Origin: Gammaproteobacteria bacterium
GTDB taxonomy: Bacteria; Gemmatimonadota; Gemmatimonadetes; Longimicrobiales; Gaopeijiaceae
DNA: 64,000 nucleotides
Direction of reading: 5' to 3'
Assembly: GCA_009840525.1 (NCBI GenBank)
Contig: VXNP01000098.1
Span: 1 to 64,000 of the forward strand
Of the stretch, positions 36,928-58,703 are shown one piece after another. The position numbers were made by a program, and so were the translations under genes. How positions within the stretch are numbered: the first letter of the stretch is position 1; the number at the start of each line of letters is the position of its first letter. The notes under the pieces were generated by a model. That model was not told the DNA's origin and made no database searches. It saw only the letters and a list, made by a program, of their open reading frames with translations.

Positions 36928-39753
36928 ATGTCCGGCACCCGACTGTTTTCCGCACGCTCATTGACCGTCTGCTTCGCCTTGCTCGCGCCGGTGGCCCTGC
37001 TGCCCGAAAGCGGCGCGGCCCAAGACGCCGACGCCTCCGTCAACGCCTCCGACCATCCGCTGCTGCGCGCGTTTTCGTGGCGCAACATCGGGCCGTTCGG
37101 GCAGGGGGGACGGGTCGACGACCTGGCCGTGCATCCCGACGACCCGTACACCTACTTCGTGGGCTTCGCGACCGGCGGGCTGTGGAAGACGACCAACAAC
37201 GGGACCACCTTCGAGCCCGTCTTCGACAGCTACGGCACGCACTCGGTCGGCGCACTCGCGATCGCGCCCTCGAACCCGGACATCCTCTGGGTCGGGACCG
37301 GTGAGGCCAACAACCGGCAGAGCTCGTCGTTCGGCGACGGCATGTACAAGTCCGAGGACGGCGGCAAGACGTTCACGCACGTGGGGCTGCGCGAGACGCA
37401 GACCATCGCGCGCATCGTCGCGCATCCGGACGACGCGGACGTGGCCTGGGTAGCGGCCAACGGCCACCTGTTCGGCCCCAACCCGGAGCGCGGCGTGTTC
37501 AAGACCACGGACGGGGGCCGGTCCTGGAGCCACGTTCTCAGCGTCGACGAGAACACCGGCGCCACCGACCTGGTCATCGATCCCTCGAACCCCAACACGC
37601 TCTTCGCGGCGACCTATCAGCGACGCCGGACGGCGTGCTGCTTCGTGGGTGGAGGGCCCGGAAGCGGCATCTGGCGCTCCGACGACGGGGGCGAGAGCTG
37701 GAGCCGACTGAGCGGCAACGGCCTGCCGCGCGGCACCATGGGGCGCGTCGCGCTGGCGATGACCCCGGCCGATCCCGACGTCGTCTACGCCCAGATCGAA
37801 GTCGCCGCGGACAAGGAAGAGCCTCTCACGGATGAAGAGCGGGCCGAGTGGGAGCGCCTGGACGACGATGACGCGCTGCCTCTCGATTCCCAGTACAACG
37901 GCATCTGGCGCTCGAGCGACAAGGGCATGAGCTGGGAGTTCCGTTCGAACGAGAACGGCCGCCCGATGTACTTCAGCCAGATTCGGGTCGACCCGGCGGA
38001 CCCGGACCTGGTCTATATCGTCGATCTGCGCATCTACAAGTCGCGTGACGGCGCGCGCACCTTCGAGACGCTGGACGGCTACGGACACGTGGACCAGCAC
38101 GCGTTCTGGATCAATCCCGGCGACAGCGATCACCTGATCGCGGGCAACGACGGTTCGGTGGACGTCAGCTACGACCAGGGCGAGACCTGGGAGTCGCTCC
38201 GGCGCTGGTCCATGGGCCAGCCCTATCACGCGTCCGTCGACATGCGGCGCCCGTACTACGTGTGCACCGGGCTCCAGGACAACGGCAGCTGGTGCGGCCC
38301 GAGCGCGGTCCGGACCGGCGAGATCCTCTCCGAGGACTGGTACCGGGTCGGGGGCGGGGACGGCTTCTACACCGCCGTCGATCCCACCGACCACACCGTC
38401 GTCTATTCCGAGTCCCAGAACGGCAACATCCGGCGCCTGAGCCTCGCGACCGGCGAGCAGGTCAGCATCCGGCCGCGCGCGCCGAGCGAGAACAATCCCT
38501 CGTCGAACATCGTGCCCATGCCCGCGCAGGGCACCGAGATCCGCTGGAACTGGAACACGCCCTTCATCCTCTCGCCGCACAACCCCGAGGTCGTGCACGC
38601 GGGCGGGAACCGCTTCTTCACGTCGATGGACCGGGGCGAGACCTGGACGATGAGCCGGGATCTGTCGAGGAACACCGACCGCGACATGATCGAGGTCATG
38701 GGCCAAGCCAACGCCCTGCCGCGCTGCAACCAGATGGACCGCGGCCGGGAGTGCATCCTCTCGCGCAACGACGGCGTGAGCGCCTGGGGTGCGGCCGTGT
38801 CGCTCACCGAGTCCCCGCTGGTGCCGGGGCTCCTGTGGATGGGCACCGATGACGGCAACCTCCAGGTGAGCCGCGACGGCGGCGCCAGCTGGACGGAGGT
38901 GGGTGAGAACATCCCCGGCGGGACGAAGGGCTACTACATCTCGCGGATCGAGGCCTCGCACTTCGACGCGGGTACGGCCTACGCCTCCGTGGACGGGCAC
39001 AAGAGCGGGGATCTCGCGCCCTACGTGTATGTGACGCGCGACTATGGCGCCAGTTGGGACAATATCACGTCGAACCTGCCGGAATACGGCAACGTCAATA
39101 CCGTGCGCCAGGATCCGCGCAACCGGAACCTTCTGTATGCCGGAACCGAGTTCGAGTTCTTCGTCTCGCTCGACGAGGGCGGGAGTTGGCACCGGTTCAT
39201 GACCGGGCTCCCGGTGGTCCGTATCGACGACGTGCTGGTGCACCCCCGCGACAACGACCTGGTGGTGGCCACGCACGGCCGCAGCGTCCTGGTCATGGAC
39301 GACATCACGCCCCTCCAGCAACTGACCCCCGAGGTGATGGAGCAGGACGCGTTCCTGTTCGAGCCGCGGGAGGCCGTGGCCTGGAAGCAGAACCGGATGC
39401 GCTCGCGCTCGGTGACGGGCGACAAGGTCTTGCGGGGGGACAATGCGCTGCCGGGGACGGCGATCCACTACTACCTGTCGGATGATGTGGATGCGGATGA
39501 TGTGAGCTTGACGGTCAGTGACGTGGTCACCGGGGAGGTGTTCCGGGATCTGGAGGCGACCGGGCACGAGGGGATCAACCGGGTGCAGTGGGATCTGCGG
39601 GGGAATGTGCCGGAGGGCCAGACCGGCGGCGGGTTTGGCGGGCCGCAGGCCCCGGTGGCGGGGGTGGGGACGTATCGGGTGACCCTCACGGTGGATGGGG
39701 AGGAGTTTTCGGAGCTGGTGACCGTGGTGGAGGATGTTTGGATGGGGGGGTGA
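36928..39753 (+). CDS. Secreted BNR/sortilin (VPS10-like) beta-propeller protein
   Basis: The product is about 941 residues with a signal peptide (LTVCFALLAPVALLPESGAA). Many BNR/Asp-box repeats follow (KTTNNGTTF, KSEDGGKTF, KTTDGGRSW, RSDDGGESW, RSSDKGMSW, VSRDGGASW, VTRDYGASW), which fold as one or two large beta propellers, as in VPS10/sortilin and xyloglucanase-type proteins. A C-terminal beta domain (GINRVQWDLRGNVPEG, YRVTLTVDGEEFSELVTVVE) is typical of the large 'glycosyl hydrolase'-named proteins common in Gemmatimonadota. Despite that name no catalytic residues can be assigned. It is transcribed alone. Confidence 0.88.
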   Translation: MSGTRLFSARSLTVCFALLAPVALLPESGAAQDADASVNASDHPLLRAFSWRNIGPFGQGGRVDDLAVHPDDPYTYFVGFATGGLWKTTNNGTTFEPVFDSYGTHSVGALAIAPSNPDILWVGTGEANNRQSSSFGDGMYKSEDGGKTFTHVGLRETQTIARIVAHPDDADVAWVAANGHLFGPNPERGVFKTTDGGRSWSHVLSVDENTGATDLVIDPSNPNTLFAATYQRRRTACCFVGGGPGSGIWRSDDGGESWSRLSGNGLPRGTMGRVALAMTPADPDVVYAQIEVAADKEEPLTDEERAEWERLDDDDALPLDSQYNGIWRSSDKGMSWEFRSNENGRPMYFSQIRVDPADPDLVYIVDLRIYKSRDGARTFETLDGYGHVDQHAFWINPGDSDHLIAGNDGSVDVSYDQGETWESLRRWSMGQPYHASVDMRRPYYVCTGLQDNGSWCGPSAVRTGEILSEDWYRVGGGDGFYTAVDPTDHTVVYSESQNGNIRRLSLATGEQVSIRPRAPSENNPSSNIVPMPAQGTEIRWNWNTPFILSPHNPEVVHAGGNRFFTSMDRGETWTMSRDLSRNTDRDMIEVMGQANALPRCNQMDRGRECILSRNDGVSAWGAAVSLTESPLVPGLLWMGTDDGNLQVSRDGGASWTEVGENIPGGTKGYYISRIEASHFDAGTAYASVDGHKSGDLAPYVYVTRDYGASWDNITSNLPEYGNVNTVRQDPRNRNLLYAGTEFEFFVSLDEGGSWHRFMTGLPVVRIDDVLVHPRDNDLVVATHGRSVLVMDDITPLQQLTPEVMEQDAFLFEPREAVAWKQNRMRSRSVTGDKVLRGDNALPGTAIHYYLSDDVDADDVSLTVSDVVTGEVFRDLEATGHEGINRVQWDLRGNVPEGQTGGGFGGPQAPVAGVGTYRVTLTVDGEEFSELVTVVEDVWMGG

Positions 39754-40594: not shown

Positions 40595-41580
40595 CGTGGC
40601 GTGACGGACCGGGCGATGGAGTCCACGGGCGTATACTGGCGCTTGGTGTGGGCAGAGCTGGAGGACGACTTCCGGCTGCTGGTGGTCAACGCCCGGCAAG
40701 GCAAGCACGTCCCGGGCCGCAAGACGGACATGCGGGACTAGGAGTGGATCGCGCGGATTCCGGAGTGCGGGCTGCTGAGGGGAAGCTCCGCGCCCCCCGG
40801 GAGATCCGCGACCCTCGGGACCCGACGCGGCTTCGGGACCCGCTGGTCCGGGAGCGGAGTTCGCAGGTCAACCGGGGGGCAAGGTCCTGGAGTTGGCGAA
40901 CGTCAAACTCGGCTCGGTGGTGTCGGACGTCAGGGGGGCGAGCGGCCGGGCAATTCTGGAGGCGATGATCGCGGGGGAGGACGATCCGAACGCGCCGGCC
41001 GGCTTGGCGAAGGGGAGCCCGCGGGGCAAGCGCCGGGAGCTCGCGGAAGTCGTTCACGGGCTGGTTCGCGACCACCACCGCTTCCCACTTCGCCGGCATC
41101 TGGACATGATCGACGAACTGGACCGCCAGATCGCGACGATCGAGGCGCGGATCGTCGCGTAGACGACCGGCCCTTTTCGGGTCGGCACTCGCCCCCCTTG
41201 GAGAGCATTCCGGGGGTCGCGCGGCGGTCGACCGAGGCGATTCTGGCGGAAATCGGCGATGACATGTTGAGGTTCCCGACCGCTACGCACCTCGCGTCCT
41301 CGGCCCGGGTCTACCCGAGTAACCACGAGAGCGTCGGAAAGCTCAAGTCCGCATCCCCCGGAAAAGGGAACAGGTGGCTGCCGGACGTGCGAAGGTGGCC
41401 TAGGCAGCGGCCCGACGAAGGGAAGCTGTACCACCGCATGAAGGCGTGCGGCGGCTCCAAGAAGGCGATCGTCGCGGTCCAGCACGCGATCCCTGTGGCG
41501 ATCTGGCACATGCTCACGATCGGTTCCCTGCACGAGGATCTCGCACGCTGCCACTTCGCCTCGGACCGCGCCCCAGCTCG
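40595..41580 (+). pseudogene. Decayed IS110-family transposase
   Basis: The plus strand carries both ends of an IS110/IS1111-type transposase. The N-terminal part is AMESTGVYWRLVWAELEDDF and LLVVNARQGKHVPGRKTDMR, ended by a stop at 40,739-40,741 (DMRD-stop-EWIA). A C-terminal transposase_20 part at 41,198-41,560 reads LESIPGVARRSTEAILAEIG, HLASSARVYPSNHESVGKLK and KKAIVAVQHAIPVAIWHMLT. The middle is frameshifted. IS110 elements use a DEDD transposase and lack inverted ends, so the boundaries cannot be set precisely. The sequence is inactive. Confidence 0.75.
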
Positions 41581-43234: not shown

Positions 43235-44715
43235 TCAGCCAAGCTGGCGGCAGTCGTCAGCGAAGCTCCGCCGACCGCGAACGCCAATTGGGAACAAGGT
43301 GTGGAATGGTAAGTGGGACATGACAACACCACCATTTGATACACACGTTGTCGCGAAGCCGCTGACGCGTCTGCGGTTTTCGAACCGATGCGTCCTCAAT
43401 CGACGACCATCTTCATCGTAGTAGGTCAAAGTGCCACGAAGTTCGTCGTTCATGTAAGGGCTGTTGCCTCGGCGTCACGCCTCACGCCTTGGAGGCCACC
43501 GAGCCGCCGGGTACGCGAGCTGGGGCGGCTTTGGGACCGCCACAGCACACACCTCAACCGCGGACCGGAGCCTCCAACCCGTCTCCCGTTTTCGTATCGG
43601 ATGGTCCCCAATCGATTGCCGGATTGATCGTATCCTGTCCAGGTGCCGTGACGCTCGTCATTCACGTCGGGACCTACTTGTCGTCCCACCTCGCCCGCCC
43701 CCCAGTACAAGATCCAGATTCCGTCACGCTTCCCGTTCATGTAGGGACCTACTTGTCGGTCGCGCCCGTCCTGCGTGAGAACGGTCCATGTGCCGTGCTG
43801 CTCGGCGTTCACGTACTGGCCCTCTGCTTCAAGCGCCCCATCCCCGTAGCGCTGAACAAACGGACCATCGGCGCGGCCGCCCTTAAGACGTGCCTCCCAG
43901 ATCTGAATGAGCTCATCGTCCTAGTACCAATTGACCTCTCCGTCTCCTTGGGTGAGTCCGTTCGAACACCCTCCGCTCCACGTTACTGTCACGTTCTCCC
44001 TAGGCTGAGGATTCCACACGTAGCATCCGGGGAGGTCGGCCAACTCCACCCAGCACGAATCCGGAGAGTAGGTTTTCGTGCAGATTCGCCCCTCCGGCAG
44101 GTCCGGCTCCGGCGCACTGGTCTCCGCAGCTACTCTCTCCGCCACCCTCCGAGTCTCCCTCAGCAGCACTTCGTATCCGCTGCCGTCGTTCTGGCTGCCG
44201 AAGCGGTGGTTGATCGTCGTCGCCTGCATTTCGGCCGCATCGAAGTCCGTGCCGAAGCCCACGCTGAAGGCTTGGAACCGCGGGTCTTCCGGGTCCACGG
44301 TCAGATCCTGGCGGATGACGCCCGTGTAGCTGATGATTACGGCGTGATCGTCCCCGGGATCGGACCACGCGCACCACACCTCCGGATAGGAGCCGAGGTC
44401 CGGGCTGAGATCGCGCTCGACCTGGTCGCGCTGGCCGATGTCCGCGCCGATCCGGTACACGATCTCCATGTCTTCCGTGTAGACCCTGCGGATCGGGTTG
44501 GTCGCGAGAGTTCGCCTTTCGCTCCCGACGCAGACGACGGCTTCGGAGCCGGACTGGGCGGCGGCAGGTGTGGCAACCAGCGCCATCGCCAACGTCGGCA
44601 AGGTGATCGGCTGACCGCGCGGTCCGATCAGCTGACGGATTGCGCGCACGGTTCTCTTAGTTGCGCCTCTGGCGGCGGCGAGGCTGCCCGTGATGGAAGT
44701 GCCGGAATCCTGCAT
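43235..44715 (-). pseudogene. Broken secreted MORN-like repeat protein, paralogue of the gene at 48146-49408
   Basis: From ATG 44715 the product closely matches the intact paralogue at 48146-49408: signal peptide, then SGSEAVVCVGSERRTLATNP and YTEDMEIVYRIGADIGQRDQ, through CYVWNPQPRENVTVTWSGGC. A TAG stop at 43921-43923 interrupts it right after GEVNWY, where the paralogue reads RTTWYQNHQ. The same frame then continues for 150 residues or so without a stop. It carries MORN-type repeats of about 24 residues (YVNAEQHGTWTVLTQDGR, PYMNGKRDGIWILYWGAG, PDVNDERHGTWTGYDQSG). A frameshift near 43,460-43,570 separates one more repeat (PYMNDELRGTLTYYDEDG). The 265-residue N-terminal part could still be made. 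Confidence 0.72.
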
Positions 44716-44799
44716 GATGGAAACTCGCCCTCCTGCCCCGGCTATTGACGAGACGCTCGCTAGCATTACTAGTAAAGAGAAGGGCTGAATTCCCGATTC

Positions 44800-44842
44800 G
44801 CAATACGTCAATAACGCGCGCCTTATACGTCATTATCAGACA
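44800..44842 (-). repeat. 40-bp dispersed repeat, copy A
   Basis: This is one of six related elements. It reads GCAATACGTCAATAACGCGC at its left end and ACGTCATTATCAGACA at its right end on the plus strand, 43 bp long with 3 extra bases. It lies 85 bp upstream of the broken MORN-like gene, on the far side from the start codon. The opposite strand contains TTGACG, which could serve as a -35 element. Confidence 0.6.
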
Positions 44843-45711: not shown

Positions 45712-46710
45712 TCAATTGATGATTCGGACCACGCGGAAGCCGCTGGCTTCGCTCCGGAAGTCCTCCACAGGATCCCGGGAACGGCTGGCCGAGCGAAGTC
45801 TTCCAGGACCGTTCAGCCAACCACCACCGCGTGACACGCGATCCGAACAGTCGCCCGACTCCCAGGCACTGCCGTCTGCGGGTGCACCCGAATAGCGCTC
45901 GTTCCAGCAGTCCAGCGTCCACTCCCACACGTTGCCCAGCGCGTCGTACAACCCGAACGCGTTGGGCGTGAACGATCCCACCGGCGCCGTCCCCAGATAC
46001 CCGTCGGAACAGGGGGCCGTGATCCAATCGGGATATTCCTGCAGAGCCGCGGCATCCGCGCCGTTCGCGTGCCGGCACTGCGCGGCATCGGTCTCCCCCC
46101 AATAACGCGCCGTCTCCGTTCCGGCTCTGGCGACGTACTCCCACTCCGCCTCGCTCGGCAGCCGATACGTTTCGCCGGTTTCGCGGGACAGCCATTCCGC
46201 GTAGCTCCGAGCTTCCGGCCAACTCACGTTGATGACGGGACGCCGACCCCGACCCCATCCTTCGTGGTCCGGAATCAGTCCGCCGCATCCCCCTCCGCGG
46301 GCGCAAGCGTCCCATTCCTCGAAGGTCACTTCGTAGACGCCCACCGCGAACGGAGCCGCGATGGTCACGTAGCGCTGCGGTCCTTCCACGATGACGAGTC
46401 GCTGGCCCGCCCCAACCTCGAGCCGCACGGTGTCTTGCGTGGTCCACTCGATCGCCTCGCCCTCCTGATCGTAGACCACCCTAAGTCTCCCGGCTTCCGA
46501 TTCCGGCGAACCCATGATGAACGTCCCGGCGGGGACCACCACCATTTCGGGGCAGGACGCGCAGTCTCGGAAGGTCTGGCCGGGCACGAGGCTGGCCGCA
46601 TCGGGGGCCGCTTGAGCCAGGAGCGAGTCCGGCTGGATCATATAGGCAACCCCACAGACCACGATCAGAGTGGAGAGGAAACCAGCAACTCTTCGCCCTC
46701 TGCTTCTCAT
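45712..46710 (-). CDS. Secreted SUMF1/FGE-sulfatase-like protein
   Basis: The 332-residue product has an N-terminal signal/anchor and the FGE-sulfatase fold. It begins at MVVVPAGTFIMGSPESEAGR and continues with PFAVGVYEVTFEEWDACARG, PVINVSWPEARSYAEWLSRE, YRLPSEAEWEYVARAGTETA, FGLYDALGNVWEWTLDCWNE and RVSRGGGWLNGPGRLRSASR. The two cysteines used by true formylglycine-generating enzymes in the final RGGSWxCxxxxC region are absent, so it is probably a non-catalytic, ligand-binding member (C-type-lectin-like fold). The start at 46710 overlaps the upstream ankyrin gene as ATGA. It is the third gene of the intact modular operon. Confidence 0.88.
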   Translation of the reverse strand: MRSRGRRVAGFLSTLIVVCGVAYMIQPDSLLAQAAPDAASLVPGQTFRDCASCPEMVVVPAGTFIMGSPESEAGRLRVVYDQEGEAIEWTTQDTVRLEVGAGQRLVIVEGPQRYVTIAAPFAVGVYEVTFEEWDACARGGGCGGLIPDHEGWGRGRRPVINVSWPEARSYAEWLSRETGETYRLPSEAEWEYVARAGTETARYWGETDAAQCRHANGADAAALQEYPDWITAPCSDGYLGTAPVGSFTPNAFGLYDALGNVWEWTLDCWNERYSGAPADGSAWESGDCSDRVSRGGGWLNGPGRLRSASRSRDPVEDFRSEASGFRVVRIIN

Positions 46711-48149
46711 CGATCCCATCGGCCAGTCCCGCTGAAGTCACCATTGGCCTCCTCGCCACCCGCTGGCCGCTCTATGCGGATCGTGTACCGGCCCGTCTCT
46801 TCGGCGATAGCGCTCGTTGCGAGGATCGTATACCGCGTAGTCGCCCGCGCCCGAAAATCCAAGCGAGCGTTCCGACCGTCTCCGCCGTCGTCATCGCTGG
46901 CGACTTCGGTCCCGTCATCCCGCAGCACCATCAGGTACGCGTCGACCTCCTCGGAGTCCATGGCTACGACAATGCGCTGGCCGGCGATAGCCGAGTAGCT
47001 CCACTCGTCGTAGTATGCCAGACCCCAGCGAACTCCATCCGTTGACGCGAGATTCCCCGTGGCTGACCGGCCCGCCATCAAGGGACTGGGCTGACTCACC
47101 AGGAGCCGGCGGTACGCGCTGCTTCCGGTGATCGCGTCGTTCTCTCTGGCAAAGTCGACCGGGCGCTGCCCGCTTGCGTCCCTCAGGGACGGATCCGCAC
47201 CGGCACTAAGAAGGGCGAGAACCACTGAAGGAGCGTCGGCCGAAAGGGCTGCGTAGTGAAGCGGTGTTCGAGCTTGTTCCAGATCGCCGTCTATCGCGTT
47301 CGGGTCAGCGCCGGCATCGAGGAGGTCCGCAACCACCTCCAGCGTGGCCTGACGCGCCGCCAGATGGAGTCCGGAGGCGCCGCCGACGGTTCGCGCGTTC
47401 GGATCGGCTCCGGCCGCGAGCAGCGCGGAGACGACTCCCGGTCCAGCCATCGGTACGGCGAAGTGGAGAGAACTCCAGCCGTAGGCATCTGCTGCCCTCG
47501 GATCAGCGCCTGACGCCAGCAACAGACTCACCGCAGCCGAGTCACCTTCGAGGACCACCATTGAGAGAAGGGTCAGGTTCTCGGCCGCGCCCGCCTCGAC
47601 GAGCTCTGAGACAACGTCTGGCTCGGCGGCATAACGTAGAGCGGAATGCAGCGGTGTTCGTCCGTCATTGCTCTCGACCAGCGGATCCGCCCCCGCGCCC
47701 AACAGCCTTGTGACCGCGCGCGCATTGCCGCTCTGCGCGGCGGCATAGTGCAGCGGCGTATAGCCGTCGTTGTCCATGGCGTTCGGATCTGCGGCGGCGG
47801 AAAGAAGATGGGAGATGACCACCGGGTTGCTGTTCGTTGCGCCCCGGTGAAGCGGCGTCTGCCCGAGGTCATTGATCGCGTTCGGGTCGGCATCGGCTCC
47901 CAAGAGAAGTTGGACGACCGTTGGGTTGTTGGTATTGGCCGCCGCGTTGTGCAGTATCGTGTTGCCTGAGGGGGCACTCCACCAATCCAACTCTACCTCG
48001 CTCAAACAGCGCCGGAAGAGCTGCACGTCGTCCCAATCGTCAGGCCCGACGGTGCAGTCCTGCGCGGCGGCGGGTGTAGCGAAGAGCAAGATAGCCAGAA
48101 GGCCGATGACAGAACGAGAGCGCTGCCCTCGAAGTCGTTTCTCACTCAT
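46707..48149 (-). CDS. Secreted ankyrin-repeat protein with C-terminal PPC-like domain
   Basis: The 480-residue product has a signal peptide (VIGLLAILLFATPAAAQ). A short DWDDVQLFRRCLSEVELDWW segment follows, then about nine ankyrin repeats (GNTILHNAAANTNNPTVVQL, GQTPLHRGATNSNPVVISHL, GYTPLHYAAAQSGNARAVTR and others, residues about 55-345). The C-terminal PPC-like beta sandwich (IAGQRIVVAMDSEEVDAYLM, TEVASDDDGGDGRNARLDFR) spans residues about 385-475. Both module types mediate binding. The start overlaps the stop of the upstream gene as ATGA, and its own stop overlaps the SUMF1 gene in the same way. It is probably periplasmic or surface-exposed. Confidence 0.88.
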   Translation of the reverse strand: MSEKRLRGQRSRSVIGLLAILLFATPAAAQDCTVGPDDWDDVQLFRRCLSEVELDWWSAPSGNTILHNAAANTNNPTVVQLLLGADADPNAINDLGQTPLHRGATNSNPVVISHLLSAAADPNAMDNDGYTPLHYAAAQSGNARAVTRLLGAGADPLVESNDGRTPLHSALRYAAEPDVVSELVEAGAAENLTLLSMVVLEGDSAAVSLLLASGADPRAADAYGWSSLHFAVPMAGPGVVSALLAAGADPNARTVGGASGLHLAARQATLEVVADLLDAGADPNAIDGDLEQARTPLHYAALSADAPSVVLALLSAGADPSLRDASGQRPVDFARENDAITGSSAYRRLLVSQPSPLMAGRSATGNLASTDGVRWGLAYYDEWSYSAIAGQRIVVAMDSEEVDAYLMVLRDDGTEVASDDDGGDGRNARLDFRARATTRYTILATSAIAEETGRYTIRIERPAGGEEANGDFSGTGRWDR

Positions 48150-49408
48150 CGCGGACCGCAATCTTCCCCCGGGTTCGTGGTGCCAGGGTCGCGGTCTCCC
48201 ACCCACAACACGAAGGGTCCCGAGTCTTCGTCGTCGTACGCGCTGGTCCTTATCTTGTACTGCCCAGTCACCGGCACCCTGAACTCCAGCCGGGCGTTCA
48301 ATCCAGAACCTCCGTCATCGTCACTCGCGACTTCGGACTCGCCATCCCTCAGTACCCGGAGGTAGGAATCGACGGCATTCGACTCCATGTTGGCCACGAT
48401 GCGTTCACCCGCCGAAAAGAAGAAGGTCCAATCCCACGAGGATCCGGCCGAAAGATGTTCCGTCAGCCGTTGTGTCCACCTGCCCCGGCTCCTACCGTCT
48501 ACGTAACAGCCTTCCCTTTCTCCCGCGCCATCGCCGAAATCGCGCACAACAGTCCAGCCATCGTTCCGTCCACCTTCAAGACGCGTGTCGACCGTCTGAC
48601 TTGTTTGATGGTTCTGATACCAGGTCGTTCGTCCGACTCCTTGGGCAAGACCGTCTGAACACTCTCCGCTCCACGTAACCGTCTCACCATCCTTCGGCGC
48701 ACCATTCCACAGGTAGCATCCGGGACGATCCGCCAGTTCCATCCAGCATGAGTCGGGAGAGTAGTTTCCGGTGCAGATCGGCCCATCCGGCAGGTTGGGC
48801 TCTCGGGCACTGACCCCCGCTGCAATCTCCGATGCCACTCTCCAAGTCTCCCTCAACAGTACCTCGAATCCGCTGCCGTCGCTGTAGGTGCTGAACCGCT
48901 GGTTGATCGTCGTCGCCTGGGTCTCGGCCGCATCGAAGTCCGTGCCGAAGCCCACGCTGAAGGCCTGGAACCGCGGGTCTTCCGGGTCGACGGTCAGATC
49001 CTGGCGGATGACGCCCCTGTAGCTGATGATCACCGCGTGATCGTCACCGGGATCGGACCACGCACACCACACCTCGGGATAGGAGCCGAGTTCCGAGCTG
49101 AGATCGCGCTCGACCTGGTCGCGCTGGCCGATGTCCGCCCCGATCCGGTACACGATCTCCATGTCCTCCGTGTAGACCCTGCGGATCGGGTTGGTCGCGA
49201 GGGTTCGTCTTTCGCTCCCGACGCAGACGACCGCTTCGGAGCCGGACTGGGCGGCGGCAGGTGTAGCAAACGGTGAGAGCGTCAGCAGCGCCAAGGCGAT
49301 CCATCGACCGCGCGGTCCGGTCAACTGACGGATGGCGCGCGCGCTCCTCTCCGTTGCGCCTCTGGTGGCGGCGAGGCTGCGGGCGTTGGAAGTGCCGAAA
49401 ACCTGCAT
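48146..49408 (-). CDS. Secreted protein with uncharacterised N-terminal domain, MORN-like repeat and PPC-like domain
   Basis: The 420-residue product is the first gene of the intact operon. It has an N-terminal export region (residues 1-55, ending FATPAAAQ). An uncharacterised domain follows (AVVCVGSERRTLATNPIRRV to FEVLLRETWRVASEI, residues about 60-200). Next is a cysteine-bearing segment (GPICTGNYSPDSCWMELADR), one MORN-type repeat (TRLEGGRNDGWTVVRDFGDG), and a PPC-like sandwich (FFSAGERIVANMESNAVDSY, SEVASDDDGGSGLNARLEFR) at residues 310-405. It is a close paralogue of the broken gene at 43235-44715. I know no function for the N-terminal domain. Confidence 0.85.
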   Translation of the reverse strand: MQVFGTSNARSLAATRGATERSARAIRQLTGPRGRWIALALLTLSPFATPAAAQSGSEAVVCVGSERRTLATNPIRRVYTEDMEIVYRIGADIGQRDQVERDLSSELGSYPEVWCAWSDPGDDHAVIISYRGVIRQDLTVDPEDPRFQAFSVGFGTDFDAAETQATTINQRFSTYSDGSGFEVLLRETWRVASEIAAGVSAREPNLPDGPICTGNYSPDSCWMELADRPGCYLWNGAPKDGETVTWSGECSDGLAQGVGRTTWYQNHQTSQTVDTRLEGGRNDGWTVVRDFGDGAGEREGCYVDGRSRGRWTQRLTEHLSAGSSWDWTFFFSAGERIVANMESNAVDSYLRVLRDGESEVASDDDGGSGLNARLEFRVPVTGQYKIRTSAYDDEDSGPFVLWVGDRDPGTTNPGEDCGPR

Positions 49409-49490
49409 GATGGAACTCGCCCTCCTGGCCCGGCAATTGACAGGGCGCTCGCTAGCACTACTAACAAGAGAAGGACTGAAAGTCCGATTT

Positions 49491-49510
49491 GCAATACGTC
49501 AATAACGTGT
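49491..49510 (-). repeat. 40-bp dispersed repeat, truncated copy B
   Basis: Only the left half of the repeat remains (GCAATACGTCAATAACGTGT). At 49,511 an unrelated integrase fragment begins. The retained half, and the 83 bp between it and the start of the gene at 49408, match the region upstream of the paralogue at 44715. The promoter block was therefore duplicated together with the gene. Confidence 0.6.
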
Positions 49511-49795
49511 GTCAATGGCCATCGAAAATGGCGCATCCTCGACGACGTCCGCGCCCTCCTGGAAGGGCTTGAGGCAACCGACATCACCCTCCACGACCGC
49601 CAGCAGGCCAACGCATTCATCGAGCAACCCCTAGTCCGGTTTCGCTACCACTTCGGCTTCTCTCGCGCCGGCAAGGGCCTGGTGCGGAGGTTCCTCGCCA
49701 AGGTGAACGGTTATTCTCCGGCCCAACTGAGCCGCCTCATCGCCCGACAACGCCAAGCGGGCGGGATCCGCGACCGCAGAAGCACATCCCGGCGC
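49511..49795 (+). pseudogene. Fragment of an integrase/transposase N-terminal region
   Basis: An uninterrupted plus-strand frame of about 93 codons has no start codon. It reads KWRILDDVRALLEGLEATDI, QQANAFIEQPLVRFRYHFGF and RAGKGLVRRFLAKVNGYSPA, then QLSRLIARQRQAGGIRDR. The pattern (helical segment, F-R-Y-x-x-L/F-G, then V-x-GYS-x-x-QLxRLI) matches the DNA-binding N-terminus of a common integrase-core transposase family. The catalytic domain is missing; at about 49,800 the sequence changes to a minus-strand SUMF1 remnant. It marks an old insertion or recombination junction. Confidence 0.5.
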
Positions 49796-49811
49796 GGCCC
49801 TTCCAGACCGT

Positions 49812-50063
49812 CTACACGCCCGGCGACGCGTACGTCACTTCGTACACGCCCACCGCAAACGGGTAGTCGATCGTCACCCCGTGCTGCGGCCCCTCCCGGG
49901 AAAACCGACCCTCCTCCGAGTCTGCGGATCCCATCAGGAAGCTCCCGGGCGGCACCACCACCATCTCCGGGCACACGTCGCAGCCGCGGAAGACATCGCC
50001 GGTTGCCTGAGCGGCCAACGGGATCGGTAGCGCGGCCAGCGGCAGCATCACGAGCTTCCTCAT
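49812..50063 (-). pseudogene. Truncated SUMF1-like gene (N-terminal fragment)
   Basis: From ATG 50063 the frame encodes a signal peptide (MRKLVMLPLAALPIPLAAQ). The start of an FGE-sulfatase domain follows (GCDVCPEMVVVPPGSFLMGS, FAVGVYEVTYASPGV) and then stops. This matches the first third of the SUMF1-like protein at 45712-46710 (SCPEMVVVPAGTFIMGSPES, FAVGVYEVTFEEWD). The homology ends where the integrase fragment abuts, so the gene was cut. Its start overlaps the upstream ankyrin-type remnant as ATGA, exactly as in the intact operon. Confidence 0.7.
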
Positions 50064-50281
50064 CGCGCGAACTGCGCCCATGCGACCTTGGTGCTGACGG
50101 CGCAGCTACGAAACCACCCGATGTCATCCCAGTCCGGGTAGGAGTAGTAGTTGTCCTGCGCGACAGCCGGGACTGCAACCAGCGAGGTCGCAAACAACGT
50201 CACGGCGGTCCACGCGCGGCGCGGTCCAGTTGGCGAACCGTGGGTGGCGACCGCCCGTCCGCCTGCGGTCGCACCGTACAC
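50060..50281 (-). pseudogene. Remnant of an ankyrin-type secreted protein (N-terminus only)
   Basis: The readable product has a hydrophobic export segment (AWTAVTLFATSLVAVPAVAQ) followed by SYPDWDDIGWFRSCAVSTKV. This matches the post-signal segment of the ankyrin protein at 46707-48149 (GPDDWDDVQLFRRCLSEVEL). All ankyrin repeats are missing. A TGA stop, overlapping the ATG of the SUMF1 remnant, follows after VAWAQFAR. An internal deletion that kept the ATGA junction would explain this. A short protein could still be made. Confidence 0.55.
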
Positions 50282-50824: not shown

Positions 50825-51262
50825 TTAGCGCCGCCAGCCGCAGTAGAGGTCCGGGTCTCCCTTGATGCTGGCCCAAGTCTCCTGGATACCTTCAAGGTAG
50901 TCGAGAATGACTTCAGGCCCTTGGGGCCATCCGTCCATTGCGCCCGTCGCCGAGCGTTCAAACGCGAGACTCAAGGCGTCGCTAAGCCAGAACAACTCGG
51001 CCCTCAGATCAGGGGAATCACAGCCGGCCGCAGCCAACTCGCCAAGGATCGCCTCCGCAAACAGGCCGCCATACCCGAACAACTCGATCCAGCCTCCGCG
51101 AATAGCGTCAGCATCTTCACGGGCCGCCGCTATCGCGGCGCTCTGTAACTGATCCGTCGCGACCGCCATGAGCGAATCGACGCGCAGAGTGTCCAGCTCC
51201 TGGGCCCTCGCCCCGATCGGCAGCGCGCCCAGCGCCAGCGCCAGCGTTGCGAGCGTCTTCAT
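50825..51262 (-). CDS. Small secreted hypothetical protein
   Basis: The 145-residue product has a signal peptide (MKTLATLALALGALPIGARA) and a helical mature part: LDTLRVDSLMAVATDQLQSA, IELFGYGGLFAEAILGELAA, ELFWLSDALSLAFERSATGA and a tryptophan-rich end. Two cysteines remain in the mature part. No family is recognised. Its ATG overlaps the (frameshifted) end of an ankyrin-repeat tail as ATGA. The signal peptide closely resembles that of the ankyrin protein starting at 52182. It probably belongs to the same duplicated gene family as its neighbours. Confidence 0.65.
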   Translation of the reverse strand: MKTLATLALALGALPIGARAQELDTLRVDSLMAVATDQLQSAAIAAAREDADAIRGGWIELFGYGGLFAEAILGELAAAGCDSPDLRAELFWLSDALSLAFERSATGAMDGWPQGPEVILDYLEGIQETWASIKGDPDLYCGWRR

Positions 51263-51511
51263 TCGTTACGTCCTCCATGCGCCGGGAGCAGCGCGGCGAC
51301 CTTGAGTCTGGCTCGAAGACTTGGCCCAATCCAGCGCGGTCATGCCGTTATCGTCCAGCACGTTCAGGTCCGCGCCCGCCGCGATCAAGATCGCCGTGAC
51401 CTCGGCGGTCCAAAGGACGCGGACTTCAAGTCGATCCTCACTTCTCCGCGCGTCCTCCAGTGCGGAGAGGACGTCGATGGTGACCTTCCTCCGCCTTCGG
51501 TTCAACCGCAA
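51259..51511 (-). pseudogene. Frameshifted ankyrin tail
   Basis: The frame ending at 51266 reads VTAILIAAGADLNVLDDNGM and TALDWAKSSSQTQ, a final ankyrin repeat, then GRRAAPGAWRT and a stop. The neighbouring frame gives VAALLPAHGGRNE and a TGA that overlaps the next gene's ATG. It matches the other tail copy at 52179-52268 (TALDWAGSSGQTQ, ITALLREHRRRNG). A one-base shift near 51,300 therefore broke the end. A second shift near 51,500 separates it from the ankyrin gene at 51502-52182, of which it was probably the C-terminus. Confidence 0.6.
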
Positions 51512-52182
51512 CCGCCTCCATGCTTCGAGCCCGCCGCGATCAAGAGATCGACAATGATCTGGGAAGCCTCTGTGGCCCTTCGGTAGTGTTCCGGATACGT
51601 CAGGGACAATTCAGCCCAATAAAGGGGGGACGTAAGCGGAAAGATGCCCGCCGGATCGCAAGGATGGGAACAGACGAACCCGACGCTGGCCCCAGCATCC
51701 AGAAGCATTTGAACTACTTCGACTGTGTTCCACACCACCGCGAGGCAAAGGGGAGTCTGGGGGCTGGTGAAACGCCCGCTGCCAGAAACGATATCGCAAA
51801 CGCCATCGACCCAGCTCCCTCCTTCGAGCAACGCCCGAACCACGGGGGCGCTACGTCCGTCCCGGGCCGCAAGGCAGAGAGGAGTCAGCCCTTCCGCCTT
51901 CACGTCCGGTCGCGCGCCCGCCGAAATCAGCAGGGAGATGATCGCCGGATCATCCCGCGTGGCCGCGAGATGCAGCGGGGTACGTCCATCAGGGTCTCTG
52001 GCGGTGACGCTCTCGCCGGCATCAAGGCAGGCACGGACGTCGGCCACGCTTGCCCGGTCGAAGAATGCAGCGGTGTTCCATTCGGGACAAGAATCCGCTA
52101 CGGGTGCAGTACCTGATTCGGCGCCACACGCCAGGGAGCTAAACGAAAAAAAGGCCAGCGCCAGCGTTGCAAGCTTCTTCAT
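51502..52182 (-). CDS. Secreted ankyrin-repeat protein, probably C-terminally truncated
   Basis: The 226-residue product has a signal peptide with a possible lipobox (MKKLATLALAFFSFSSLAC). About five ankyrin repeats follow (GRTPLHLAATRDDPAIISLL, GLTPLCLAARDGRSAPVVRA, QTPLCLAVVWNTVEVVQMLL, then a longer irregular one with SLTYPEHYRRATEASQIIVD). It ends in GSKHGGGCG, while ankyrin-coding sequence continues in another frame downstream, so the native protein was longer. The ATG overlaps the TGA of another ankyrin tail (ATGA). Copy D of the 40-bp repeat lies 185 bp upstream. Confidence 0.7.
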   Translation of the reverse strand: MKKLATLALAFFSFSSLACGAESGTAPVADSCPEWNTAAFFDRASVADVRACLDAGESVTARDPDGRTPLHLAATRDDPAIISLLISAGARPDVKAEGLTPLCLAARDGRSAPVVRALLEGGSWVDGVCDIVSGSGRFTSPQTPLCLAVVWNTVEVVQMLLDAGASVGFVCSHPCDPAGIFPLTSPLYWAELSLTYPEHYRRATEASQIIVDLLIAAGSKHGGGCG

Positions 52183-52268
52183 CCGTTACGTCGTCGATGC
52201 TCCCGGAGGAGCGCTGTGATCTGCGTCTGGCCCGAAGACCCGGCCCAATCCAGCGCGGTCAGGTTCGT
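52179..52268 (-). pseudogene. Orphan ankyrin C-terminal tail
   Basis: About 28 codons (NLTALDWAGSSGQTQITALL, then REHRRRNG and a stop) match the C-terminal tail of ankyrin proteins in this island but have no repeats in front. The upstream sequence (52,270-52,366) is instead similar to the leader next to repeat copy C. The remnant keeps the ATGA junction to the following gene. This suggests that a deletion removed the body of an ankyrin gene. Confidence 0.55.
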
Positions 52269-52839: not shown

Positions 52840-55194
52840 TCACCCCCCAGCCTCCACCATCCGGTACCCAACCCCCCGCTCGGTAAGGATGTAGACAGGA
52901 TTCCCCGCGTCGTCGCCCAGCTTCCGCCGGAGCTTCTTCACGAAGGTGCGCACCGGCTCGGAATCACCCCCTCGGCCGCGATTCCAGATCCGGCGCAGCA
53001 GGGTGTCCGTAGTCACGACGCGGCCCGCGTTGAGCGAGAGCACCCGCAGCAGTTCGAACTCGGTGGCGGTGAGCTCGACTTCGCGCCCCGCCAGGGTCAC
53101 CTCGCGCCGGTCGTAGCGGATGCGGAGTTCGCCCGACACGAAGGGTCCCGCCTCGGCGCGCCCTCGCAGCGCGGCCCGGACCCTCGCCACGAGTTCCGTC
53201 GGCGAGAAGGGTTTGACGATGTAGTCGGCCGCGCCGGCCTCGAGCGCCCGGGCCATGGTCTCGTCCCTGTTGTAACCGGAGATGAAGATGACCGGCAGCT
53301 CGGAGAGTTCGGGGAGCTGCTCCATCAGTTCGATCCCGTCGCCGCCGGGAAGCATCAGGTCGAGCAGCACGATTGCGGGCTTCTCGGTCCGGATGAGGCG
53401 CGGCAGGTTCAGCGGGTCACCCGTCACCAGCGGCGCGAAGCCGGCCCGCGAGAGGGCATCGCGAACGAAGCGCAGCGTCCGGGGGTCATCGTCGATCACG
53501 AGTATGCGCGTGCTCTCGCGCCCTTCCTGGGCCTCGCCCGCGGCAGCCCCGCGACCGTCTTCGCGTAACATCTCCTCGGCAACGGGCACGGTGAAGGTGA
53601 AGCACGCGCCCCGGCCCACGCCGGCGCTTTCGGCTCGAATGCGCCCTCCATGCGCCTCCACCAAGCCCTTGCAGATGGCGAGCCCCAGCCCCTGGCGCAC
53701 CGCCGCGTCCTCCCCGTCGCGACGGGCGTGCTTGCTGAACAGGTACGGCAGGCGCTCCGGCTCGACGCCCCGGCCCTCGTCGGACACGGAGACGGCAACG
53801 TGCACCCCGTCGCGCACCGCCTCGACCCGGATGGGAGATGACTCCGGCGAGTGCCGGGCGGCGTTGGTGAGCAGGTTGTTCAGCACCTGGACGATGCGTC
53901 GGCGATCGGCCATGACCGGGGGCAGGTCGGGCGGCAGGTCGATGAGGATGGCGTGCCGGCGGCCGCCGCTCAGGAAGGTATTCCGCGCTCGGTCGACCAG
54001 AACTCCCAACCGGGTGGGCTCCGGTTTGATCGACAGCGTGCCCGAATCGATGCGCCCGGTGTCCAGAAGATCGCCGATGAGGCCGCGCATCTGGTCGGCC
54101 TGCTCGTCGATGATGCGGGCGAACTCGCGCTGTTCGGCCGGATCCAGCTCGGGCGATGCCGTCAGCAGGGTCGTGCTTGCGCCCTTGATGGAGGTGAGCG
54201 GAGCCCGCAGCTCGTGGCTGACCAGGCTGAGGAATTCGGTGCGCGAGCGCTCCAGCTTCTCCAGCGGCGCCAGATCCTGCGCGGTGATAATGACCGACTC
54301 GACTTCACCATCCTTGCCGAGGACCCGGGTGGAGTTGATCAACGCCTTGACGCTCCGGCCATCGGGCACCACGAACTCGACCTCTTCGGCGCGTAGCCGC
54401 TCGGCCCCGCCTAGTTGCTCGGCCAGGGGGGATTCTCCCAAGACGATCACACGCCCGTCACTGAACCGACACGTCATCCCATCGAGCACGTCTGTAAGCG
54501 AAGGGCCGAGGCGCTCGCCGAGCGCTCTCGCCTCCCGGTTGAACACCGTGAACTCGGCTGTCCGGGCGTCCAGGACTGCAACGCCCACCGGCGAAGTATC
54601 GATCAGCACCTCCAGACGGGCCCGGGCCAGGTGTTCGTCCCGATAGGCGCGGGCGTTGGCGATGGCCACCGCAGCCTGTGACGCGAACAGCACCAGGGTC
54701 TCTTCGTCCGCATCGGTGAATTCCTGGCCTCCCTCCTTGTTGTCGAGGAAGAAGCTGCCGACGTGCAGGCCTCGGTGGTGCATCGGGGTCGCCTGGAAGG
54801 TCCTGGTACGCCAAGTGTTCGGCGCCAGACCCAGTGATTCGAGGTACCGGGACAGGTCCGCCACTCGCAGCGGCCTGGAAAGCCTGCGAAGGTGCTCGTA
54901 GAGCCGCAGGCCATCGGGCCAGTTCAACACCCGATCGAGTTCTTCTCTCGAAAGACCGGAGGAGACAAGCTCCTGGAGTCGTCCCCGGTCGTCCATGGTC
55001 ATGATGAGCCCGTACCGGGCGTTGGTCAGGGCGCGGGCGCTGTCGACGATCTCCTGCAGAACGGTATCGAGGTCCAGGCTTGCGCTGACGCGCAGAATCG
55101 CCGCCGTCAGCCTGGAGATGCGCTCCTGAAGCGCCTCGTTGCGGCGCTTGAGTTCGTCGATGCCGTTCAACGTTGCTTCCCCGGCCGAATACAC
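52840..55194 (-). CDS. Histidine kinase fused to OmpR-type response regulator
   Basis: The 784-residue product carries a whole two-component system in one chain. It starts with a coiled coil (about 12-35), then a GAF domain (about 40-185) and a PAS domain (about 195-305). HisKA follows with phospho-acceptor H327 in FLSLVSHELRAPL, then a HATPase_c domain with the N box near N443 and G boxes DEGRG and GLGLAICKG. Next come a receiver domain (564-680; acidic DDD at 568-570, phospho-acceptor D612, K661) and a C-terminal OmpR winged helix (about 690-784). No membrane segment is seen, so it senses a cytoplasmic signal. It is divergent from a REC-like/HTH gene 128 bp away. Confidence 0.92.
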   Translation of the reverse strand: MYSAGEATLNGIDELKRRNEALQERISRLTAAILRVSASLDLDTVLQEIVDSARALTNARYGLIMTMDDRGRLQELVSSGLSREELDRVLNWPDGLRLYEHLRRLSRPLRVADLSRYLESLGLAPNTWRTRTFQATPMHHRGLHVGSFFLDNKEGGQEFTDADEETLVLFASQAAVAIANARAYRDEHLARARLEVLIDTSPVGVAVLDARTAEFTVFNREARALGERLGPSLTDVLDGMTCRFSDGRVIVLGESPLAEQLGGAERLRAEEVEFVVPDGRSVKALINSTRVLGKDGEVESVIITAQDLAPLEKLERSRTEFLSLVSHELRAPLTSIKGASTTLLTASPELDPAEQREFARIIDEQADQMRGLIGDLLDTGRIDSGTLSIKPEPTRLGVLVDRARNTFLSGGRRHAILIDLPPDLPPVMADRRRIVQVLNNLLTNAARHSPESSPIRVEAVRDGVHVAVSVSDEGRGVEPERLPYLFSKHARRDGEDAAVRQGLGLAICKGLVEAHGGRIRAESAGVGRGACFTFTVPVAEEMLREDGRGAAAGEAQEGRESTRILVIDDDPRTLRFVRDALSRAGFAPLVTGDPLNLPRLIRTEKPAIVLLDLMLPGGDGIELMEQLPELSELPVIFISGYNRDETMARALEAGAADYIVKPFSPTELVARVRAALRGRAEAGPFVSGELRIRYDRREVTLAGREVELTATEFELLRVLSLNAGRVVTTDTLLRRIWNRGRGGDSEPVRTFVKKLRRKLGDDAGNPVYILTERGVGYRMVEAGG

Positions 55195-55322: not shown

Positions 55323-56123
55323 ATGATCCCGCTGTATCACGAGACGCGCGCCCTTCGGGAGACGGTCGAGAAGCTGCTCGTCGATGTGCCCCTGGAACCC
55401 ACGGCGTCCCGTCGTGAGTTCGGCACGCTCGTCGGCAACGCGGATGTCGGGATCATTGGTCTCGGCCGATGCTCGGCAACAGATGTGCAGTGGCTCACCA
55501 AGGTGTCTCGCGGGGGACTCCTCGCCCCTTCGTGCATCGTGATCACCCCGCTGTCGATCGGCCGTCTTCAGCGGCTCCGGGGGATCGAATCCGAGCGGAT
55601 TCACGTGGTGTGGGCCGAAGAAGTGGACGACCGCCTGGTCGACGTAGTCACCGAGATCGCACCCTGGCATGACGATCCTCTCCGGCTGCTGGGACGACGT
55701 CTGCTCGCCGTGAGTTCGCCGCACCGGTCCGTTGCCGAGGCCATCCGGCGCATCTGCAACCTCTCCGGCCATCGCCCTCCCACCCGGCCCGAGACGTCGG
55801 TTACCGAGCTGGCATTCAGCCTGGGGATCTCGCCCGACTCGTTCCGCCGCTACTGGCGGGAGGGAATCCCCCTCAGGTGTGGTCCCAAGGTGCTGCTGAA
55901 CTGGGCCGTGCTCCTCTGGGCGTTTCGACAGCGTCGCCAAGTCAAGTGGGACGCTCTCGCCAGGCAGGCGGGAATCGGCAGGCGCACGCTGGAGCGATAT
56001 GGCCGGCAGCTTGCCGACTGTACGCTCGCCGAGGCGTCCCGTGACCCGAAGCTGCTCAAGCGCCGGTTCCGGGAATGGGCCGGAGCGGTCTCCGCGGTCA
56101 CGACGGAGGCGGCCCCGACGTAA
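55323..56123 (+). CDS. REC-like / double-HTH regulator (paralogue 1)
   Basis: The 266-residue product has two parts. Residues 1-115 look like a divergent receiver or Rossmann-type fold (MIPLYHETRALRETVEKLLV, LVGNADVGIIGLGRCSATDV, LAPSCIVITPLSIGRLQRLR). No acidic pocket or phospho-acceptor aspartate is evident. Residues about 150-250 hold two helix-turn-helix segments (VTELAFSLGISPDSFRRYWR; KWDALARQAGIGRRTLERYG) linked by LRCGPKVLLNWAVLLWAFRQ, an AraC-like layout. A close paralogue is at 57729-58703. It is probably a DNA-binding regulator not controlled by phosphorylation. The ATG at 55323 fits the paralogue's start. Confidence 0.7.
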   Translation: MIPLYHETRALRETVEKLLVDVPLEPTASRREFGTLVGNADVGIIGLGRCSATDVQWLTKVSRGGLLAPSCIVITPLSIGRLQRLRGIESERIHVVWAEEVDDRLVDVVTEIAPWHDDPLRLLGRRLLAVSSPHRSVAEAIRRICNLSGHRPPTRPETSVTELAFSLGISPDSFRRYWREGIPLRCGPKVLLNWAVLLWAFRQRRQVKWDALARQAGIGRRTLERYGRQLADCTLAEASRDPKLLKRRFREWAGAVSAVTTEAAPT

Positions 56124-57728: not shown

Positions 57729-58703
57729 ATGATCGCGTTGTATTACGACACACGTGACTTGCGCGACCGGATCGAAGGGTTGCTCGGCGACGCGGATCTG
57801 TACTCCACAAGGGACCGCGACGAGTTCCAGTCGTTCATCGCCGCGACCGACATCGGCATCGCCGGTCTGCAACGCTGTTCGACCTCCGATGTAGCCTGGC
57901 TCCGGGAGGTTTTCGCCCAGGGTCTCGCAAGGCCTTCCTGCATCGTGGTTACGCCGTTGTCGCTGGCTCGCCTACAGCGGCTTCGGACGGCCGAGTCGCA
58001 CCGGTTTCAGGTCGTGTGGGAGGAGGAGGCGCACGACCACCTCAGGCCGACCCTGGGACGGGTCAATGTGATGCATCGGGATCCGCTCCGGCTTCTGGGG
58101 CGTCGCATGCTCTGGTCCTGCTCGCTCCACTGGTCCATGGTGAAGGCGGTTGAGCGCATCTGCAGGCTCTCGGACGAGTGGCGATCGAGCCCGCCGGCAA
58201 AATCGGTCCGGGATCTCGCACAGGACATCGAAGTGCCCGCGGAGACCTTCCGCCGGTACTGGAAGGAGAACATGCCGTTGCGGTGCGGTCCCAAGCAGCT
58301 CCTCAGTTGGGCCCTGCTCATGTGGGCGCTTGGCGAGCGGCCGAAGACTCGCTGGGACGTCATCGCCAGCCGGGCGGGTGTGCGCCGACGCACGCTCGAG
58401 CGGCACAGTGTGCGCCTGGTGGGGTGTACGCTCTCCGTCGCAACCCGCGAGCCGGTCCTGGTTCGGCGCCGCTTCCGGGCCTGGGTCTCGCAGGTGTCGG
58501 ACGTGAAGCCGCCCGCCGCCCGCCCGTTGCCGTCGGCCGAGCAGCGTAACGGTCCAGCGCGGGTCCAGCGTCAATGGGACGATGTCGTCGGGTCCCCCGG
58601 CTTCTTCGTCGCAGGCCGGCGCTGGACGGCGCTGCCGGGTTCACCAGGACGTCCGAACATGCCGGCGGACTTCGTTGCCCAGGCGATGATGGCCGGGCAG
58701 TAG
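57729..58703 (+). CDS. REC-like / double-HTH regulator (paralogue 2)
   Basis: The 324-residue product is similar throughout to the protein at 55323-56123: MIALYYDTRDLRDRIEGLLG, TDIGIAGLQRCSTSDVAWLR, RPSCIVVTPLSLARLQRLRT, DPLRLLGRRMLWSCSLHWSM, then the HTH region VPAETFRRYWKENMPLRCGP and SRAGVRRRTLERHSVRLVGC. It has an extra C-terminal tail of about 60 residues (RWTALPGSPGRPNMPADFVA) not found in paralogue 1. A strong promoter precedes it, and an NHL-repeat lipoprotein gene follows after 30 bp. I know no named family for this architecture. Confidence 0.7.
   Translation: MIALYYDTRDLRDRIEGLLGDADLYSTRDRDEFQSFIAATDIGIAGLQRCSTSDVAWLREVFAQGLARPSCIVVTPLSLARLQRLRTAESHRFQVVWEEEAHDHLRPTLGRVNVMHRDPLRLLGRRMLWSCSLHWSMVKAVERICRLSDEWRSSPPAKSVRDLAQDIEVPAETFRRYWKENMPLRCGPKQLLSWALLMWALGERPKTRWDVIASRAGVRRRTLERHSVRLVGCTLSVATREPVLVRRRFRAWVSQVSDVKPPAARPLPSAEQRNGPARVQRQWDDVVGSPGFFVAGRRWTALPGSPGRPNMPADFVAQAMMAGQ

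Follow-up and report, generated by a model that had tools for sequence, protein, structure and literature searches.

Three adjacent genes for putatively exported ankyrin, FGE-like and novel-domain proteins at a variable locus of a Gemmatimonadota genome

The window analysed here is the whole stretch of 64,000 nucleotides at positions 1 to 64,000 of contig VXNP01000098.1 (assembly GCA_009840525.1, titled Gammaproteobacteria bacterium and placed by GTDB in the Gemmatimonadota, family Gaopeijiaceae). Three open reading frames lie head to tail on its minus strand: gene A (48146..49408, 420 aa), gene B (46707..48149, 480 aa) and gene C (45712..46719, 335 aa). An earlier note, made from the letters alone, had read them as an operon of secreted proteins joined by two ATGA stop/start overlaps, and the three frames with their overlaps are indeed present. 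The A/B overlap is an exact ATGA at 48146-48149, with the ATG of B at 48149, whereas the ATGA at 46707-46710, taken earlier for the B/C junction, is the internal M4 (fourth codon) of C, whose first ATG lies at 46719; the B/C overlap is 4 nt counted from M4 or 13 nt counted from 46719, depending on the start of C. Three further gene pairs in the window have a 4-nt overlap, so that such overlaps are ordinary here and the production of A, B and C in a fixed ratio, as proposed before, does not follow. The predicted export signals stand: hydrophobic leader cores are found at residues 37-48 of A and 14-25 of both B and C (judged from these cores). The ratio of nonsynonymous to synonymous substitution rates (dN/dS) against relatives is 0.09-0.25 for the N-terminal domain of A, for B and for C, and the three look like real proteins under purifying selection. 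Their codon bias is weak, and no sigma70-like promoter was found in the region. A, B and C probably form one operon.

The product of gene A consists of a leader (residues 1-54), an N-terminal domain (hereafter N-domain, 55-190), MORN-like repeats (206-313) and a PPC-like tail (327-387). The N-domain carries the motif VCVGSE and two invariant cysteines, C62 and C115, which may form a disulfide. It has no Pfam match and no sequence match in the PDB. Modelled alone, the domain reached pLDDT 78 and pTM 0.73 (the full-length model of A is poor, pLDDT 49), and a Foldseek search of the model against the PDB gave a best E value of 0.2 at a probability of about 0.1 or less, with no convincing fold; the 420-residue protein does contain an uncharacterised domain, as had been claimed. 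A profile search located the N-domain in 21 of the 395 genomes of the phylum (3 of 138 genera), and on these searches we regard it as a new small domain restricted to this lineage. The viral contigs and plasmids searched contained no relative of it, and a phage or plasmid origin was rejected on this ground. The MORN-like units, which come after the N-domain in A and its relatives, were seen by eye and as sub-threshold MORN_2 matches in the relatives of A. The sole Pfam match of A is PPC (E 0.0018, 19.5 bits), below the gathering score of 25.9. The leader is unusually long, and dN/dS over its 54 codons is 0.56, an indication that translation may begin further in than annotated.

In the product of gene B, a signal leader is followed by ankyrin repeats (residues ~62-340; Ank_2, E 9e-52) and a PPC-like tail (383-444; PPC, E 3.6e-4, 21.8 bits, again below 25.9), so that ankyrin repeats are combined with a predicted export leader. 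The tails of B and A are 47% identical, and both are likely PPC domains, though they score under the Pfam cut-off. With PADLOC, B had ankyrin-type matches alone and the kinase described below had weak ones, and a defence system was rejected. The product of gene C is a signal leader and an FGE/SUMF1-like domain (56-332), which matches FGE-sulfatase (PF03781) end to end (E 4e-50, 171 bits versus a cut-off of 23). In an alignment to human FGE, the positions of the catalytic pair, which we take to be C336/C341 of the human enzyme, are occupied by a gap and a serine, in line with the absence of catalytic cysteines reported from the sequence earlier. C carries eight cysteines, as do its fused relatives. 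The best curated family is PvdO (NCBIfam NF051459), at 206 bits below its cut-off of 500, and PvdO is also the nearest solved structure (5hha). Among the neighbouring proteins scanned, no siderophore (pyoverdine) or peptide-substrate genes were recognised; the remaining genome was not searched for them. The modules of the three proteins are of the binding type described before: MORN-like and sub-threshold PPC in A, ankyrins and sub-threshold PPC in B, and FGE-like in C.

The N-domain of A is fused to an FGE domain of the C type in 17 genomes of two other genera. Several genomes of the genus g25 carry a separate C-type gene just upstream of this fusion, while in the genus of the window and in three genomes of the genus g62 the N-domain is joined to MORN-like repeats. 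C and the fused FGE domains form one eight-cysteine set, in which the fused protein of genome G419 is closest to C (66%), the tree of the C-type domains being poorly resolved; the same genome has, 2.5 kb from its N-domain/FGE fusion, another protein in which FGE is fused to TPR-like and ankyrin-like parts (the ankyrin part is under the Pfam threshold). Because relatives fuse both, the N-domain and the C-type FGE domain probably act together. To this extent the functional link between the parts suggested by the earlier note holds, but nothing shows a physical complex, and a three-protein A-B-C complex is unproven. Most paralogues of the C type lie dispersed at other places in the genomes, where FGE-like and ankyrin genes are numerous.

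The operon lies within ~13 kb of lower-GC DNA (63.3% versus 69.1 and 67.8%), in an interval with two conserved borders. One is a sortilin/BNR-repeat protein (36991..39753, plus strand; 91-98% in congeners), the other a hybrid histidine kinase-response regulator (HK-RR; 52840..55194, minus strand) of the architecture GAF-PAS-HisKA-HATPase-REC followed by an OmpR-type winged helix-turn-helix, which is also a candidate regulator. Besides A, B and C, the island in the window contains A', a second copy of A (43690..44715, minus strand), in which MORN-like repeats replace PPC and an in-frame TAG occurs at 43921-43923 (its N-domain is 88% identical to that of A), and C', the cut-off start of a C-type gene (49755..50081, minus strand). 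Duplication and diversification in the island, as described before, are borne out by these copies, with the reservation that several are broken, so that decay accompanies diversification. In congeners the contents of this interval differ, and four loci have different sets of A-type, C-type and ankyrin genes or of their remnants: one ankyrin gene and one A gene carrying MORN-like repeats, with neither B nor C (G010, locus L033); an immunoglobulin-like protein and a broken A (G006, L055); remnants of ankyrin genes and part of a C gene with a stop (G009, L091); ankyrins and a frame-broken A (L036). In G005 (L092) a B-type gene (58%) stands beside the sortilin gene without A, on a contig that ends before the HK-RR. 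In L035 the HK-RR is followed by immunoglobulin-like/glycosidase-like genes, B (81%) and an A gene overlapping B by 4 nt, with no C. Full-length A genes are kept in G010 and L034. The order A-B-C, whose conservation the earlier note had made its test, was absent from every other congeneric locus, genome and contig examined.

The A-type genes are mosaics. The DNA of A, A', G010 and L034 is mostly 75-99% identical from about -75 to +525, with a peak of 93-99% at codons 55-105, and falls below 60% beyond. Differences at fourfold-degenerate sites amount to 0.21-0.22 in the N-domain versus 0.50-0.62 in the middle of the genes (Fisher P 0.003 and 0.0005), and synonymous divergence (dS) is 0.23-0.32 versus 1.0 or more. 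Compared with the background dS at the borders (0.15 for the sortilin gene and 0.41 for the HK-RR), the values for the head would fit ordinary inheritance or homogenisation, and those for the tail replacement by divergent sequence; we infer that recombination causes the contrast. A-type genes consist of a conserved 5' module of upstream element, leader and N-domain, mostly 80-99% identical in DNA, and divergent 3' modules, which are MORN-like repeats or PPC in the window and the FGE-like domain in other genera.

The upstream element, ~100 bp long, was aligned in 12 copies and reads AATGTCTGA-ATTGACGTAT-N11-ATTGACGTATTGC, with conserved flanking DNA. It stands before A-type, B-type (L035) and ankyrin genes, and in L035 B is headed by the A-type element and leader. 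A 20-base core of the element had 6 matches in 11 congeneric genomes, all in the hotspot, and the reversed control had none. Two ATTGACGTA repeats 22 bp apart are present in 9 of the 10 elements tested. The exception is the element of A itself (49409..49513, minus strand), in which one intact ATTGACGTATTGC repeat, the second of the pair, is retained with the conserved 5' leader DNA and the upstream repeat is missing; A' is preceded by the same kind of element (44716..44816, minus strand). The element of A abuts a possible transposase/integrase-like remnant (49493..49780, plus strand), a 96-residue frame with one 40% paralogue and a weak HTH_29 match on part of it, whose identity as an insertion sequence was not confirmed. 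Regulators of the OmpR type (PhoB/OmpR) bind direct repeats in 11-bp steps. A DNA-binding domain of the OmpR type forms the end of the neighbouring HK-RR, and the 22-bp spacing of the direct repeats ahead of the locus genes (though not of A) is a multiple of 11 bp; the element would suit a regulator such as this HK-RR. An HK-RR of the same family directly precedes the N-domain gene in G123 (g62) and, in degenerate form, in G349 (g25). The intergenic DNA between the two genes is 79% identical over 159 bp across two families (L054:8531-8689 and L138:6363-6517), and this points either to transfer from one family to the other or to strong constraint. The earlier note did not have the conserved 5' element, the mosaicism of the A-type genes, the N-domain/FGE fusions or the neighbouring HK-RR.

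In our reading, to which we assign roughly even odds (about 0.5), A-B-C is how a locus that encodes exported recognition proteins and undergoes recombination is currently arranged, and the three-gene set is a passing state of a variable locus. The proteins would be exported by their leaders and would bind partners outside the cytoplasm, most likely ligands on the surface of the host (a sponge) or of neighbouring cells. Recombination around the conserved 5' module would swap the binding modules, the adjacent HK-RR would bind the repeats spaced by 22 bp and control the genes, and the N-domain and the FGE-like domain would act jointly. A bolder version, which we hold to be unlikely, would make the locus a dedicated one of host-associated Gemmatimonadota, in which an HK-RR-controlled 5' cassette (the paired ATTGACGTATT element, the leader and, for A-type genes, the N-domain) is recombined onto MORN, PPC, ankyrin and FGE-like modules to give strain-specific recognition proteins acting in a complex whose core is the N-domain/FGE pair. 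Several observations weigh against the recombining-locus reading. Export, a ligand and contact with a host are predictions for the three proteins; the PPC scores of A and B are under the Pfam cut-off; and the N-domain model lacks a fold match. Broken copies are frequent in the hotspots (A', C', the C of G009 and the A genes of L036 and L055). With its upstream repeat lost, the element of A may leave the regulation of the operon impaired. The other HK-RR paralogues in the genome border no such loci, and a general tie of this HK-RR family to them was rejected.

The genes could also be chance neighbours, an insertion hotspot having gathered unrelated exported repeat proteins that stand head to tail and do not act together. 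This account is possible, though tilted towards the unlikely: the A-B-C order is confined to one genome with the parts alone in relatives, 4-nt overlaps are common in the window, and many FGE-like and ankyrin genes lie scattered, but mere proximity would not lead one to expect the fusion of the N-domain and the C-type FGE domain in two other genera, the renewed pairing of B and A with an overlap in L035, the PPC-like tail common to A and B, or the single 5' element that heads different genes of the locus.

Quite improbable, in our judgement, is a periplasmic enzyme unit with C as a PvdO-like enzyme of the FGE fold, the N-domain of A as its partner or lid and B as a scaffold. PvdO is the best curated family and nearest structure of C, and relatives fuse the N-domain to an FGE domain with the eight cysteines in common; yet the FGE cysteines are absent from C, no siderophore or peptide-substrate genes were recognised beside the operon, and, in the genus of the window, the other N-domains are followed by MORN-like repeats instead of FGE. 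The stop in A', the fragmentary C genes (C' and G009), the frame-broken A genes of L036 and L055, the weak codon bias and the possible mobile-element remnant would fit a decaying island, a graveyard of inserted genes with A-B-C as a short-lived intact remnant. We consider this most improbable, as A, B and C are intact, their lineages evolve at dN/dS 0.09-0.25, and G010 and L034 retain full-length A genes.

No paper joining ankyrin, N-domain and FGE-like parts was found in the literature, in keeping with the earlier statement that no such system is described. The locus resembles the secreted ankyrin proteins of sponge symbionts in having a predicted-exported ankyrin protein in a genus with named sponge-associated species, and differs from them in that the ankyrin gene shares an operon with genes for an FGE-like protein and for one with a new domain, and in its module-shuffling organisation. 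The enrichment of ankyrins in sponge-associated bacteria is described, for instance, in PMC6372511. Among FGE/SUMF1 proteins (PF03781), C falls nearest the PvdO branch and fits the whole domain, but it lacks the FGE catalytic cysteines, scores under the PvdO cut-off and belongs to an eight-cysteine subfamily fused to the N-domain in relatives. A predicted-exported FGE-fold protein in a diversifying locus also recalls the targets of diversity-generating retroelements (C-type lectin/FGE fold); here the locus varies by whole modules. Such a retroelement was rejected, as no match to the reverse transcriptase RVT_1 was found in the genome (G000, 98% complete), where the controls matched. Polymorphic toxins and pilin-type cassettes combine a conserved 5' head with a variable tail. 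The conserved 5' module with divergent 3' modules and partly broken copies alongside is similar, but no toxin, immunity or pilin domain was recognised, and several genes share the 5' element. We place the locus with the secreted eukaryotic-like recognition proteins of host-associated bacteria, distinguished by its unusual modular layout and its new small domain. Sponge symbionts have many exported ankyrin proteins, and the locus offers a concrete, testable case of how such repertoires may arise and be controlled. Its segment for regulation and head is reused, its new domain occurs fused or linked to modules of the FGE-like and ankyrin types, and the neighbouring sensor-regulator is a candidate for its control.

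The related loci match contigs of 'RHO'-series metagenome-assembled genomes, one of them titled Candidatus Palauibacter rhopaloidicola, whose genus is described in PMC10469786; going by the names of these genomes, the bacterium is probably sponge-dwelling. Two of the four matching contigs are titled as other phyla, which makes binning or labelling unreliable. L033, L034 and L035, titled Gammaproteobacteria, Gemmatimonadota and Bryobacterales, carry parts of one locus (L033 and L035 have the HK-RR border, 82-92% to the window), and at least two of these contigs are probably mislabelled or misbinned. The contigs of G003 and G001 end a few hundred bases past the sortilin gene, by short transposase-like frames (L093:54-293 and L094:8-238, the latter with a weak DDE_3 match), and repeats may break assemblies at the hotspot. 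A short frame at 40917-41162 of the window, without a Pfam match, may be an IS110-type transposase remnant.

In g62, a DUF4377 protein (tested in L057) adjoins the N-domain/FGE fusion gene at a conserved site (L057:7031-7825, with equivalents in L058-L062). Beside the HK-RR of the window lie two related proteins (55323-56123 and 57729-58703, about 50%), to which no family was assigned; they are conserved with it in the genus, and one has weak helix-turn-helix matches only. The island also contains a further ankyrin gene (51502..52182, minus strand), which shares its 5' region with a gene for a 145-aa protein (50825-51262). This second type of 5' region, at 51234-51342 and 52154-52261, is about 85% identical over 109 bp between the two genes that it heads.

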